A DNA stretch of 33,271 bases. It comes from Minisyncoccota bacterium (GTDB lineage Bacteria > Patescibacteriota > Minisyncoccia > Minisyncoccales > JAQTPW01). Where the stretch lies: positions 141,114 to 174,384 of the forward strand of contig JAQTPW010000001.1 of the NCBI GenBank assembly GCA_028712565.1. The letters are read 5' to 3'. The notes under the pieces were generated by a model. The model was not told the origin of the DNA, did not search any database, and was given only the letters and a program-made list of their open reading frames with translations. Of this stretch, positions 8,702 through 15,288 are shown one piece after another. Numbering within the stretch: the stretch's first letter is position 1; each line of letters starts with the position of its first letter. A program made the position numbers and the translations under genes.

Positions 8702-9814
8702 TTATGGCTGGAATAATTCTTCCGGTGAAAATCTGACCTGTGTAATTCCGGAAAATTGCTTTGCCGTAGCTTCAATCTGAAACCACAAAATCCCCACCCG
8801 GCAAGATCCGCCTCCAGTTTTGTTGTTTGGATCGGAAAAAGCAAAAGTTAAAACTCCATTATTCAAAGAAGCTCCCTCCAAAGAAAATCCGGACAAAGGA
8901 TATTCGGTTGTAATCCCTTGCGCCCTTTCAGCGTCACTTAAATTCCCGGAAATAAGCAGTTTAATCGTATCTTGTATCGGCGTATTGGTTATTGGAATTT
9001 GGCGGTCCAAAGCCACCAATCCTTTTCTGCTGCAAAGGATGTTTCCGCTAGAATCCTTATCAAGATTGGGATTATAATAATAAAGCTTCACTGTTTGAGT
9101 CGGCATTGTTAATGTTTTCACAACCACCGCACCGCCTATTTTCCAGCCGGATATCTGAACCCGCTCCCCTGTTTCAAACGCGACCGAATGGCAAGATTTA
9201 CTATTATTTCCGATATTGCAGCCACTATCTGCGCTGAATTTAAGTTCTGCATTTAAAGCGGGCATTCCTGGCTCTTCATAGACCAAATACCAGACACCGG
9301 GTTTAAATCCCGGATTGTCTTTTACAAGGTTTCCGGTTTTAGAAAAATCTAAAGCCAATTCTGCGGCTTTTAATTTTACCGGTATTATGATTTCTGCGCT
9401 GTTTTGGGGCAGGCCGGAAGGATTGTCTTTTCGCAAAATAAGAGTGCCGTTTTGGTCTTTTGGCACTGAAAAGGCCAATATTGATTCAAAGGGAACAAAA
9501 TCTTCGGTCATCCAGTCACCCTGCGCCTGAGCATAAGTTTGCTTTACAGTATTTCCGTTTTCATCGAGCAGGATTACCGGAAATGTGGCTTCAAAATACC
9601 AACCTCCCCGGGCTTTTCCTTTTATAATGTAAGGGCTTTGGATTTCTTCATTTCTATCTGGATTTTCCACTTGGATTTGGCTATTTTCTGGTTCAATTTT
9701 TTCGCCTTTCATATAATAATAAATATAAAGGCCGCCGGCCACAATAGCAACTAAAATAACAATTATAAGAATTAACGCCAGCATTGAAGTTCCTTTTTCG
9801 GTTTCTTTGAACAT
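8702..9814 (-). CDS. Membrane-anchored Gmad2 + GerMN (sporulation/germination-like) domain protein
   Basis: N-terminal TM; IQSPYIIKGKARGGWYFEATFPVILLDENGN (Gmad2-like); VKLYYYNPNLD...QDTIKLLISGNLSDAERAQGITTEYPLSGFSLEGASLNNGVLTFAF (GerMN-like). Confidence 0.75.
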   Translation of the reverse strand: MFKETEKGTSMLALILIIVILVAIVAGGLYIYYYMKGEKIEPENSQIQVENPDRNEEIQSPYIIKGKARGGWYFEATFPVILLDENGNTVKQTYAQAQGDWMTEDFVPFESILAFSVPKDQNGTLILRKDNPSGLPQNSAEIIIPVKLKAAELALDFSKTGNLVKDNPGFKPGVWYLVYEEPGMPALNAELKFSADSGCNIGNNSKSCHSVAFETGERVQISGWKIGGAVVVKTLTMPTQTVKLYYYNPNLDKDSSGNILCSRKGLVALDRQIPITNTPIQDTIKLLISGNLSDAERAQGITTEYPLSGFSLEGASLNNGVLTFAFSDPNNKTGGGSCRVGILWFQIEATAKQFSGITQVRFSPEELFQP

Positions 9815-9941: not shown

Positions 9942-12662
9942 TTAGTGCAATTTTTTTATATGGAATATATGAGTTAGAAATTTTAAAAGCAAATATAATC
10001 CGAGTAAAAGGGATATGCCGGCAGATAAATAAAATATTATTCTTATAATTTTTCTGCCGCCGGAATCGCCAGAATTCACGCCATTGCTTATCTGGGCAGA
10101 AAGTTTTTTTGAATAATCTTCCTTAATTTCCTCATTTTCCGGGATTGAATTTGCAGAATCATCAACTGATAAATTCTGTTCGTTTTCTATTTTTACTTCC
10201 GGGATATTCGCAACCAATTGTTGCGAGGTTTCAAGAGAAACCGTCGATGTTGCAGAAATTAATTTTGCTGGAGTTGCATATTGGGGTTCCGGCACATTTT
10301 CATTAATTGAAGTTGTGGCAAAAACTGTAGTGGTTGCGGCAAGAACCATGGGAGTTGTGGTAGAAATTGTAGTAGTTGCGGCTGATAATTCAGGAGTTGA
10401 AGTGGGACTGACAGGCAAATTTTCGGCAGCTTCTAATTGCGTTATATTTGCATTATTCGAATTTTGCAGATTTTCAGTTTTTTTTGGAAAACTTTGCATT
10501 ATTCCATCCCAGGTTTTTCCCAATGCCGCCGGAATAACATAAGCTGTAGTCCAAATCCTGGTATCGAGAGCAATGGATACGTCCTCAAACCCGCCGTCAT
10601 CATTTTGGCGGGAAGCTAAAAAATCATAGGAATTGTTTCCAGTATTTTCCCAGCTTTGAACCTGCTCTCCCAAAGCTACAATTGCCTGAATTGCCCAGGA
10701 AGTTGATATTGCATTGTTGTCAAAACCGCCATTTTCAGTTTGCGAATTTTTTAGAAAATTTTTTGCCAACTGCAATGATTGCTCAATTGAGTCTATAATA
10801 TCAGTATCTAAACCCCCTGTTTTTTTTGCAAGAGAAAGCGCTTGTATTGCCGACGCCGTCAAATCAATGTTGCCCCAGGAACCATTTGTATTTTGCTTTG
10901 AAATAATAAATTTTAATACAGCCCTAATAATCGGATCGGAACCTGAATATCCGGCTTTTAACAAAGGAAAAAGCGCAAAAATATCGTCGTTAAAAAGTTC
11001 GGGATCGCCAATTTGTGTCCCGTCAAAAGCGGATAAAATCAAAGAAATATAATCTGTCGCAGTTTCAGAATAAGGATTAACTGAAAGCGCCATCAAAGCC
11101 ATAGCTCTCCTTTCCAGATCGGTAATGCTTCCATTGGTATTATACTCGGCTCCCGACAAATAATTTTTTAATTTATTTTTCGCATCACTCCCGCCAAATG
11201 CAGACAGCGCAATCGCCGCCCAATCAGAATAAATAATTGAAGATCCTATAGAGCCGTCGCTGTTTTGATTTAAGACAAGAAAATTTATGGCTTTATTTAT
11301 ATCTGCTGTTTTATGCGTTTGCGCATTTCCGGGATTTGCCCCGGGGTTGCCTCCAGAACCGCCGCTTGGAATTGGAATATCGGGAGGAGTTGGCGGAATT
11401 ATTTCATCTTGAAAGATCCCAGCCAAAGTTAAAATCGGGCTGTCCAAATACCCTGCTTTTTTCCCAAAAATTAAATATGGGCTGGTTGTGGCGACTAATA
11501 ATTGAAATGCGCCGTCTTCAGAAAAAAATTCCTGTCCATCAATTAAAAATGTGCTGCTCGCAGCTAATTCCCAAACAGGACTCCAGCCAGAATCATAAGC
11601 GAATTGTTCCAAAAATAAAGTAGTTGTACTATTTACGGCCGGAGTTGTGGTCGCGGTTGTAATTCTTAAAGGACTTATGCCGTAAATCAGGAGTAAGTTT
11701 TCATTTTCGCTTAAAATATCCTTGTTTAGCGCAACTTGCCCGTAATCCAAATCTTTAAACCAGCTCCAATAAATTCCGTTTCCATCCTGATTGTTTGCAA
11801 AATCTGCAATTGAATCCAAAAATGAATCACTCCCCCAGTCCGTCCATTGGTTTAAAAGTCCCGACTGTTCCACCGCGCATTTGCCATTCAAACTGTAAAT
11901 GCCATTTCCCGCATTTTCTTCACAAGCTAAAACCGCCAGATTCTGATTGAGCAAAGTTGAGCTTGCAGTTTCAAGACGCAAATTAATATTAATTGTTGGC
12001 AGCTGCGGAATAATTATTGTGGGCTCGCTGTCAATAAATCCCGGTTCTTTTGCAGAAATTTCATAAGCCGTAGTGGTATTCGGCCATAATTCATAAGTTC
12101 CGCTGGCGCTGGGAATTTCCAGCCCGTTGATTGAAAACGTGGTGCTTGCCGCCAGAGCCCATTGCCAAAAAGAAACATCAAAATAAAAAGCGCTTATAGT
12201 TGTGGTTGAATTAATAAACGGCGAGATATCGGATGCTGTTATTTTAAGCGGACTTGTCCCAAAAGATAGCAACAGTTTTTCACCCTCGGAAAGTATATGC
12301 TGATTTAACGCTGTTTCTCCGGGTTCTGAATTGCTAAACCAAAGCCAGTAATTAATAAAATCTCCTTCGTATTGATTTATGGAATTTAACATAATTCCGT
12401 ACGGATACCAGGTTGAAGTCGCAGTCCAACTTTTGCTGGAAATTAATTGGTCTATTGCGCACCAGGCGTTAATAGTATAATTTGTGCTGCTTGCCTGGTC
12501 CGGGCAGGAACTCACAATAAAGTCATTATCAAACAAAATTTGATCAAAGGCGGCAACTTTCATTTGAATTGTTGTTGTCCCCTCGGCTTTAGCTTGCGAG
12601 ATAAATAAAAACAGGCTGGCAAAAACTATAAAAAGAATGATTTTAGAATTGAGGTTTTTCAT
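9942..12662 (-). CDS. Secreted/anchored protein: signal peptide, two DUF4430-like domains, prenyltransferase/terpene-cyclase-like alpha/alpha barrel, C-terminal TM
   Basis: Two copies of YWxWFxxxxxGxxALNxxxLxxxExLLLxxGxxPLxI; barrel repeats AINFLVLNQNSDGSIG...AQALSLAKKTGG...FLKNSQTENGGFDNNAISTSWAIQAIVALG...FLASRQNDDGGFED; C-terminal IIFYLSAGISLLLGLYLLLKFL. Confidence 0.8.
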   Translation of the reverse strand: MKNLNSKIILFIVFASLFLFISQAKAEGTTTIQMKVAAFDQILFDNDFIVSSCPDQASSTNYTINAWCAIDQLISSKSWTATSTWYPYGIMLNSINQYEGDFINYWLWFSNSEPGETALNQHILSEGEKLLLSFGTSPLKITASDISPFINSTTTISAFYFDVSFWQWALAASTTFSINGLEIPSASGTYELWPNTTTAYEISAKEPGFIDSEPTIIIPQLPTININLRLETASSTLLNQNLAVLACEENAGNGIYSLNGKCAVEQSGLLNQWTDWGSDSFLDSIADFANNQDGNGIYWSWFKDLDYGQVALNKDILSENENLLLIYGISPLRITTATTTPAVNSTTTLFLEQFAYDSGWSPVWELAASSTFLIDGQEFFSEDGAFQLLVATTSPYLIFGKKAGYLDSPILTLAGIFQDEIIPPTPPDIPIPSGGSGGNPGANPGNAQTHKTADINKAINFLVLNQNSDGSIGSSIIYSDWAAIALSAFGGSDAKNKLKNYLSGAEYNTNGSITDLERRAMALMALSVNPYSETATDYISLILSAFDGTQIGDPELFNDDIFALFPLLKAGYSGSDPIIRAVLKFIISKQNTNGSWGNIDLTASAIQALSLAKKTGGLDTDIIDSIEQSLQLAKNFLKNSQTENGGFDNNAISTSWAIQAIVALGEQVQSWENTGNNSYDFLASRQNDDGGFEDVSIALDTRIWTTAYVIPAALGKTWDGIMQSFPKKTENLQNSNNANITQLEAAENLPVSPTSTPELSAATTTISTTTPMVLAATTTVFATTSINENVPEPQYATPAKLISATSTVSLETSQQLVANIPEVKIENEQNLSVDDSANSIPENEEIKEDYSKKLSAQISNGVNSGDSGGRKIIRIIFYLSAGISLLLGLYLLLKFLTHIFHIKKLH

Positions 12663-13251
12663 ATTTCCAATTTATTGCATCATTTGGCTTTAAAATATAA
12701 TTCGAAATTCCGACCTGGGCAGCTTTGTCATTTATATAGTAGATCCAATAGGTGTTTTCACCTGGGTTATTTTTTATTCCGTTAATTTCTTCAACAAAAA
12801 AACCCAATCCCAGCGAATTCTTTCCAGCAAAACTAATTTCGTTTTTGGCTGAAAGCAAATCCATCAATTCATAAACTGTGCTTTTTTCCGGAACTGAAAT
12901 TTCATATTTTTTTTCGCCAACGTATAAAATGTGCGGCTCACCCGTCGCCTCTGTTTTTACTCCAGCGACAGTTTCGGACATAGTTGATGTGGCCTCGGAT
13001 GTTTTAATGTTTTCTTCCGGAACAATATTTGAAACCACGTTTTCTTGTTGAGCTTGTTCTGTTTCCAGTTGGTACTGGTTATCTGATATTTGGCGTGGCG
13101 AATAATTCTTATTTTCAATCGGCGCGCTTTGGTTAATATAAATATAACTTACAGCAGCAAGGCATGAAAAAATAAAGAAAATAATTAATAATTTTTTCGT
13201 CCGAGGCAGACCAGACTTAGGCTGATTATTTCCGTGGATTAAGTTATTCAT
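12643..13251 (-). CDS. Membrane-anchored DUF4430 (transcobalamin C-domain-like) protein; start corrected to ATG 13251
   Basis: MNNLIHGNNQ...KKLLIIFFIFSCLAAVSYIYI TM; VYELMDLLSAKNEISFAGKNSLGLGFFVEEINGIKNNPGENTYWIYYINDKAAQVGISNYILKPNDAINWKYE. The 25 residues before it in the track are translated riboswitch/terminator. Confidence 0.85.
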   Translation of the reverse strand: MNNLIHGNNQPKSGLPRTKKLLIIFFIFSCLAAVSYIYINQSAPIENKNYSPRQISDNQYQLETEQAQQENVVSNIVPEENIKTSEATSTMSETVAGVKTEATGEPHILYVGEKKYEISVPEKSTVYELMDLLSAKNEISFAGKNSLGLGFFVEEINGIKNNPGENTYWIYYINDKAAQVGISNYILKPNDAINWKYEKPQF

Positions 13252-13281
13252 AAAAAAATCTTTCCCAAAACAGGAAAGATT
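13252..13281 (-). terminator. Riboswitch expression platform: intrinsic terminator
   Basis: AATCTTTCC-TGTTTTG-GGAAAGATT followed by T-run on minus strand, ending at the ATG. Confidence 0.85.
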
Positions 13282-13299
13282 CCGGATAAAATCCGCGTT

Positions 13300-13440
13300 T
13301 GTCCTGCTCGGGACGTTTGCTGCCAAACAATGTTCGGGCTCATTCCGAAAAAAATACGGACATTACCGTTGCGGCACAGCCGGGGAATCTAACCCCACTT
13401 TCTGCCCCATAATCGGGCTCGCTCAAAAAGCGATGAAGGC
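13300..13440 (-). ncRNA. Cobalamin riboswitch
   Basis: Minus strand GGGGCAGAAAGTGGGGTTAGATTCCCCGGCTGTGCCGCAACGGTAATGTCCG...GAATGAGCCCGAACATTGTTTGGCA contains the conserved GCxGxxCCGCAACxGTAA core and B12-box-like AGCCCGAACATTGTTTGGCA. Confidence 0.9.
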
Positions 13441-13468
13441 AACAATTTATTTAACTTATTATATTTTA

Positions 13469-13497
13469 ATTTTATTCCAAAAACATCTGTAAGTCAA
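13469..13497 (-). promoter_or_regulatory. Promoter of the riboswitch operon
   Basis: TTGACT (13497-13492)-17 bp-TAAAAT (13474-13469). Confidence 0.75.
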
Positions 13498-13531
13498 ATC
13501 GCCCAAATGGCGATTTCTGATTTGTACGTAC

Positions 13532-13559
13532 GGTTGTACGTACGTCCGTACGTACAACC
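13532..13559. repeat. 28-bp near-perfect palindrome GGTTGTACGTACG-TC-CGTACGTACAACC
   Basis: Direct reading, 13-bp perfect arms. Confidence 0.9.
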
Positions 13560-13578
13560 ATATATCGAAGAAAAGCCT

Positions 13579-14802: not shown

Positions 14803-15288
14803 TTATTTTATAATTTCACCTCTTAACTTCATCCATATTTTCCCCAATTCGTTTCTTCCGTTCCTTTTCTTTCCCCACCCCCAAAAGTCGTCTTTCGGAG
14901 AATCTTCTATAATTTTTCTTTTCCCAGTTTGTAATAATTTGTGCATTACGTAGGGATTCTGTTTTAATTTGTGCCTGACAATATCTTCCATAATTGCGAT
15001 TTTTTTATCTGCCCAATCACTCGGAAATTTATCTTTATTCGCACTCGCAATTCTTTTTGCCTCATCAGCCGACATCGCTTTGTAAATTTTTTCGACTAAT
15101 TTTGGCGCGGTTTTTAAAAAATGTGCGGCTTGATAAGCATGCTCTGAAGTTTGCCAAAGTCTGCCCCTCCATTGCACCGCAAAACTGGAAAAATTAGAAA
15201 AACAATAGAATTCTCTTTCATAAAATCCGACAATTTTTCCAGAAGTTTCTAACTGAGGATCTCTGTTTTGATATTTTGTTTTCAACAT
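14803..15288 (-). CDS. NADAR (YbiA/DUF1768) family protein
   Basis: GFYEREFYCFSNFSSFAVQWRGRLWQTSEHAYQAAHF...MEDIVRHKLKQNPYVMHKLLQTGKRKIIEDSPKDDFWGWGKKRNGRNELGKIWMKLR. Confidence 0.9.
   Translation of the reverse strand: MLKTKYQNRDPQLETSGKIVGFYEREFYCFSNFSSFAVQWRGRLWQTSEHAYQAAHFLKTAPKLVEKIYKAMSADEAKRIASANKDKFPSDWADKKIAIMEDIVRHKLKQNPYVMHKLLQTGKRKIIEDSPKDDFWGWGKKRNGRNELGKIWMKLRGEIIK

Follow-up and report, generated by a model that had tools for sequence, protein, structure and literature searches.

A two-gene unit on the minus strand of a 33,271-nucleotide stretch of a Minisyncoccota bacterium genome (GenBank assembly GCA_028712565.1, contig JAQTPW010000001.1; the whole stretch, G000:C12:141114-174384, is called the window here) is probably a corrinoid-repressed vitamin B12 scavenging unit of a patescibacterium, a reading to which we give a probability of about 0.78. 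At low cell corrinoid, the L13 loop of the riboswitch in the leader would be free to pair with the terminator, which would then not form, and both genes would be expressed; with corrinoid on the aptamer, L5 and L13 would kiss, the terminator would form, the ribosome-binding site would be hidden and expression would stop. Both products would be exported and membrane-anchored, and the larger one, of 906 amino acids (aa), would hold the corrinoid in the cleft of an alpha/alpha barrel, capped by its own and/or its partner's SLBB domains, which resemble the transcobalamin beta domain. The corrinoid would then be handed to a CbrT-like membrane protein, DUF6580, for import, and would serve B12-binding enzymes of the radical-SAM type.

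The initial annotation had read the unit as a corrinoid-capture system, and this is supported by the riboswitch family, the carrier-like barrel fold, the match of DUF4430 to intrinsic factor, the strict co-occurrence of DUF4430 and DUF6580, and NrdJ and adenosyltransferase neighbours in relatives. As a description of the unit it was partly confirmed: the elements are present, but the Rfam threshold, the start of the first gene and Pfam support for the repeats went against it. Computation gave the structure and family of the RNA, the folds of the domains, co-occurrence, gene neighbourhoods and the families that were searched for and not found; the ligand identity, corrinoid binding, hand-off, transport, the direction of regulation and the radical-SAM type of the B12-binding proteins are inferred.

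The leader had been called a cobalamin riboswitch, and the window RNA itself stays under all Rfam thresholds. In a permissive scan it matched AdoCbl-II (RF01689) with 29.8 bits (E 1e-4 in a 1 kb search) against a cut-off of 36.5, so that the check proposed at the time, a search with the Rfam cobalamin model, ended below threshold, and an RF00174 search of the whole own genome gave no match. In contrast, with the window and its close kin left out of the model, the window RNA scored 39.5 bits (E 9e-10), the next match in the window having 10.4 bits, and seven relatives of the same RNA family exceed the Rfam cut-offs for RF00174, RF01482 or RF01689; on these two grounds we regard the sub-threshold result as resolved, the leave-out model having recovered a cobalamin riboswitch that goes unnoticed at current Rfam thresholds. 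In the relatives' alignment, three of four P4 pairs and the central pair of P6 show compensatory changes, and in the relative L032 the P1 pairing is preserved through a double change. L5 and L13 are complementary in five sequence versions (UGC/GCA, UAC/GUA, GGC/GCC, CUCCC/GGGAG and GCUCCCCC/GGGGGAGC), and when their covariation was evaluated by permutation, random re-pairing was equally good in 5 of 20000 trials. GGCAGC was dropped as a candidate L13 in favour of the conserved CGAGCA hairpin. The RNA thus has P4, P6, the L5-L13 kissing loop and a terminator-type platform in common with RF00174, RF01482 and RF01689, and differs from them in its divergent B12 box, its small periphery and its scores.

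Using a model that included the window, related RNAs were detected in 113 of 380 genomes sampled from the phylum and were often followed by genes for DUF4430, the barrel, DUF6580 or an adenosyltransferase (PduO); an RF01689 search of the 100 nearest genomes gave further matches before similar genes. The order of riboswitch, DUF4430 and barrel is kept in L032, L064/L095, L072/L094, L089/L096 and probably L078. A match in G013, which lies inside a coding region, was discarded, as were those at L035 and L036, which precede riboflavin-type genes and resemble flavin mononucleotide riboswitches. The strongest matches of the phylum scan, L092 (G465:C42) and L093 (G333:C9), precede an operon coding for an acidic protein that matches no Pfam family and for two ATPases, one of the AAA type resembling ClpB and one a coupling ATPase resembling TraG/TrwB, and similar leaders were seen at L065, L067, L068, L070, L071 and L080. 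There, a cobalamin riboswitch apparently controls what is predicted to be a secretion- or contact-type machine. At L087 (G383:C8), a cobalamin riboswitch is followed by an NrdR-type gene.

The annotated promoter was recovered as a promoter-like TTGACT-17-TAAAAT upstream of the riboswitch, and a TTGAC box could be read at a similar place in the sequences of many relatives. The folded leader had a z-score of -2.8, with 0 of 200 shuffles equally stable. As had been proposed, a terminator overlaps the start of translation: its strong hairpin ends just before the ATG at 13251, and its 3' arm, GGGAAAGA, doubles as the likely ribosome-binding site. The 5' arm and loop of the terminator, UCCUGUUU, are able to pair with P13/L13, GAGCAGGA, as an antiterminator; the summed longest pairing of the L13 stem with this arm was 96, compared with 68 +/- 4 in shuffles (0 of 2000), for segments picked by hand. 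With the 5' arm open to pairing with the L13 stem and the likely ribosome-binding site on the 3' arm, a termination off-switch is the likely mode of control, with a direction of regulation that is predicted from the sequence.

The two genes overlap, as annotated. The TTG at 13326 that had been taken as the start of the first gene is unlikely, being inside the leader; the ATG at 13251 is the most probable start and gives a protein of 202 aa. This protein matches PF14478 (DUF4430) with an E of 8.5e-20, in agreement with its annotation as a transmembrane DUF4430 protein, and the top matches of the DUF4430 profile among solved structures in the PDB are intrinsic factor (E 6e-4), which bears out the suggested kinship of DUF4430 to the beta domain of the carriers. 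Plasmids, when searched for DUF4430, had none.

The second protein has, by hydropathy, the hydrophobic N-terminus and C-terminal transmembrane helix on which its export and anchoring had been proposed, and its homologues in L001 and L032 are 70 % and 72 % identical to it. Support for its two suggested DUF4430-like domains comes only from profile-profile comparison (hhalign probability 71-91 %, E 4e-5 to 1e-6) and from their mutual similarity of 34-37 %; they remain below the Pfam threshold. AlphaFold modelled the barrel, residues ~450-725, with a predicted local distance difference test (pLDDT) score of ~90, in line with the alpha/alpha barrel with prenyltransferase-like repeats that had been described; confidence was poor elsewhere, a probable consequence of there being no more than three homologues across most of the N-terminal half. 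When the model was compared with known structures using Foldseek, as had been advised, the barrel fold matched the animal carriers: 15 of the first 21 matches were intrinsic factor, transcobalamin or haptocorrin (best E 2e-6; intrinsic-factor alpha domain 2pmv_B, TM 0.68), and these carriers ranked above most cyclases and the alpha-2-macroglobulin family, the fold being partly common to cyclases and thioester domains. In Pfam, the barrel matched SQHop_cyclase_C (1.8e-5) and Cobalamin_bind (4.1e-5), both just under cut-off; for Cobalamin_bind (PF01122, cut-off 25 bits) the scores were 23.1 for the 906-aa protein, 24.5 for L027, 23.1 for L001 and 18.3 for L032. The relatives L025, L031 and L066 carry the barrel and DUF4430 as one fusion, arranged as in intrinsic factor; in L027 and L096 DUF4430 comes before the barrel, in L096 as a fusion.

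The annotation had seen no BtuFCD- or ECF-type transporter in the window; a likely transporter that it missed, DUF6580, is coded elsewhere in the genome, on a different contig (G000:C30:541-1119), near two of 12 proteins with a B12-binding domain. The genome is of 867 kb and 98.7 % complete, and presence and absence in it were called by family searches. Compared with the PDB, the DUF6580 profile had 6fnp_A (E 9.6e-5) as its only match up to E 10, an entry that we take to be the ECF-CbrT structure (ECF, energy-coupling factor), S-component. The DUF6580 model is confident and has six helices, and its closest folds are ECF S-components, at modest Foldseek values (E from 0.1 up, probability up to 1.00). 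By sequence and model, DUF6580 is therefore the likely transporter, a putative CbrT-like B12 S-component. EcfT (CbiQ, PF02361) was not found in the own genome, and FecCD matched there only below cut-off. All 22 genomes with DUF4430 among 100, the own genome included, also have DUF6580 (Fisher 3e-19, relatedness ignored), the two genes being adjacent in at least 15 of the 22, and 12 of 12 riboswitch genomes have both DUF4430 and DUF6580 (6e-10 and 5e-9, again ignoring relatedness). The order is riboswitch-DUF4430-DUF6580-RNR-BtuR (RNR, ribonucleotide reductase) in L023/L024, partly read from sequence, and NrdJ-PduO-DUF6580 in L057.

ECF-CbrT is a vitamin B12 transporter, and in Lactobacillus delbrueckii the gene order is nrdJ-cbrS-cbrT-pduO (PMC5997447), which the L057 order resembles; DUF6580 is akin to this system as an S-component relative by fold, as a CbrT relative by sequence, and through the NrdJ and PduO neighbours of its relatives. 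It is also like BtuM, a solitary B12 S-component of organisms without EcfT (PMC6072759), in its occurrence in a genome without EcfT. Unlike both, DUF6580 forms a Pfam family of its own and is accompanied by secreted capture proteins, in what is here a predicted role in transport. A divergent DUF6580 branch (L045, L050, L052, L053, L060) is found mostly beside DUF4430 in a nusG-rplK neighbourhood without a riboswitch; several of its loci adjoin dCTP deaminase- and ThyX-like genes, names read from sequence, and its host genomes are mostly without known B12 users. This branch may transport a different substrate.

The survey for B12 enzymes and transporters that the annotation had recommended yielded, besides DUF6580, 12 matches to the B12-binding domain in proteins of about 430-660 aa, while NrdJ, the large RNR subunit, BtuR and PduO were not found in family searches of the own genome. 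One of the proteins (L042:2136-3506) was scanned further and is radical-SAM-like, and the size of the others suggests the same type, so that about 12 B12-binding radical-SAM-type proteins are the likely B12 users. The users found suggest methyl- or hydroxo-corrinoid use; the ligand form of the riboswitch is not readable from its sequence.

Several results weigh against a B12 scavenging unit. At Rfam gathering thresholds, a scan of the window returned tRNAs only, with no cobalamin family reaching its gathering score. The barrel's sequence profile matched squalene-hopene cyclases and related barrels in the PDB and no cobalamin carrier, so the resemblance to carriers is one of fold, and the N-terminal repeats, which would supply a beta domain facing the cleft, were modelled with low confidence. 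In the own genome DUF6580 is outside the barrel/DUF4430 operon. In three genomes with DUF4430 and DUF6580 (G016, G082, G089), searches for the B12-using and adenosylating families gave no match, so that the cargo of the pair may be a different one in such lineages. The statistics over genomes, for distribution as for co-occurrence, ignore relatedness.

The unit might instead capture another tetrapyrrole or cofactor, for example haem, the riboswitch only coupling it to corrinoid status. Pairs of toroid and DUF4430 occur with full ECF operons without a detectable cobalamin riboswitch, as in Latilactobacillus curvatus, where the barrel search found an operon of toroid-LPXTG, DUF4430, EcfT, ATPase and EcfS, and a similar operon of Lactobacillus sakei reportedly imports haem. 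The reviewers of PMC1796856 likewise cautioned that SLBB ligands may vary. We nevertheless consider another ligand unlikely, given the genes that follow this riboswitch family in the phylum, which code for DUF4430, the barrel, DUF6580 and PduO. The only PDB relative of DUF6580, presumably the CbrT structure, also argues for B12.

It is still less probable, in our estimation, that the 906-aa protein is a squalene/terpene-cyclase or prenyltransferase-type enzyme, or a thioester-type adhesin, with an indirect link to B12. Although its sequence profile matches squalene-hopene cyclase and SQHop_cyclase_C, these matches are to the repeat motif and extend over no more than a part of the cyclases; the protein is secreted and membrane-anchored, its best structural neighbours are mostly cobalamin carriers, and in other genomes fusions of related proteins with DUF4430 have the domain order of intrinsic factor. 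Loss of corrinoid sensing from a riboswitch-like leader, which the score under the Rfam cut-off and the divergent B12 box could indicate, appears very improbable against a core, P13 and terminator that are near-identical in L032 and L001, the compensatory P1 changes in L032 and an intact kissing loop.

Patescibacteria have tiny genomes, and their cofactors must come from others. For reduced bacteria that apparently do not make B12, the unit suggests a scavenging route that is testable in about a third of the sampled phylum genomes; it would suggest a likely substrate and a role for DUF6580 and, within Patescibacteria, for DUF4430. Tentatively, many Patescibacteria may import B12 in two steps, with riboswitch-controlled surface capture followed by a solitary DUF6580 without an ECF module, feeding radical-SAM methyltransferases in the present case. 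As these rather than adenosylcobalamin enzymes would be fed, the switch would then sense a non-adenosyl corrinoid.

Burroughs et al. (2007) proposed as B12 scavengers the secreted toroid and SLBB proteins that low-GC Gram-positive bacteria without key B12 biosynthesis enzymes carry together with CbiO/CbiQ, the toroid being N- or C-terminal (PMC1796856); the L. curvatus operon is of this kind. The unit resembles that transcobalamin-like SLBB clade in pairing a secreted and anchored toroid and SLBB protein, whose same-chain SLBB domains are recognised by profile comparison only, with a second SLBB protein. It differs in belonging to Patescibacteria, in direct control by a cobalamin riboswitch, in having two SLBB-like repeats before the barrel, and in that the 2007 operons carry CbiO/CbiQ whereas its genome yielded no EcfT. 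Scavenging by such proteins having been proposed then, what is new is the riboswitch control, the spread in Patescibacteria and, apparently, the solitary S-component. In the open-licence literature we found no paper describing a riboswitch-controlled patescibacterial version, and none in which cobalamin riboswitches are named together with the Candidate Phyla Radiation. With intrinsic factor, transcobalamin and haptocorrin the unit shares the barrel fold and, through DUF4430, the beta-domain family (PMC4350170), while it differs in the reversed domain order of the 906-aa protein, the membrane anchor, the two genes and a PF01122 score below cut-off; its proteins would be counterparts, in living bacteria, of the B12 carriers of humans.

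Table 1. Features of the unit, in window positions
Feature	Position	Strand	Remarks
Whole unit	13497-9942	minus	order: promoter, riboswitch, terminator, DUF4430 gene, barrel gene
Sigma-70-type promoter	13469..13497	minus	-35 TTGACT 13497-13492, -10 TAAAAT 13474-13469, spacer 17; 10/12 matches
Cobalamin-type riboswitch aptamer	13317..13445	minus	core 13322-13413 by models; P1 arms 13445-13438 / 13324-13317; L5 UGCCG 13376-13372
P13 hairpin GUCC-CGAGCA-GGAC	13301..13314	minus	L13 13310-13305 pairs with L5
Intrinsic terminator	13252..13281	minus	strong hairpin
Membrane-anchored DUF4430 (SLBB-like) protein, 202 aa	12643..13251	minus	transmembrane residues 18-41; domain about 12655-12882
Secreted, C-terminally membrane-anchored barrel protein, 906 aa	9942..12662	minus	overlaps preceding gene by 20 bp (12643-12662)
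SLBB/DUF4430-like repeat 1, residues 25-172	12147..12590	minus	profile comparison; unrecognised by Pfam
SLBB/DUF4430-like repeat 2, residues 225-345	11628..11990	minus	profile comparison; unrecognised by Pfam
Alpha/alpha barrel, residues 450-725	10488..11315	minus	prenyltransferase/squalene-cyclase-type repeats; Pfam, AlphaFold model, Foldseek
C-terminal transmembrane helix, residues 871-902	9957..10052	minus	hydropathy; helix 883-904 in model

Around the unit, a near-perfect GTACGTAC-rich inverted repeat (13518-13565) lies just upstream of the promoter, and a membrane-anchored protein with Gmad2 and Germane domains is coded directly downstream of the 906-aa gene (8702-9814, minus strand). Further upstream, 14803-15288 on the minus strand codes for a NADAR-domain protein.

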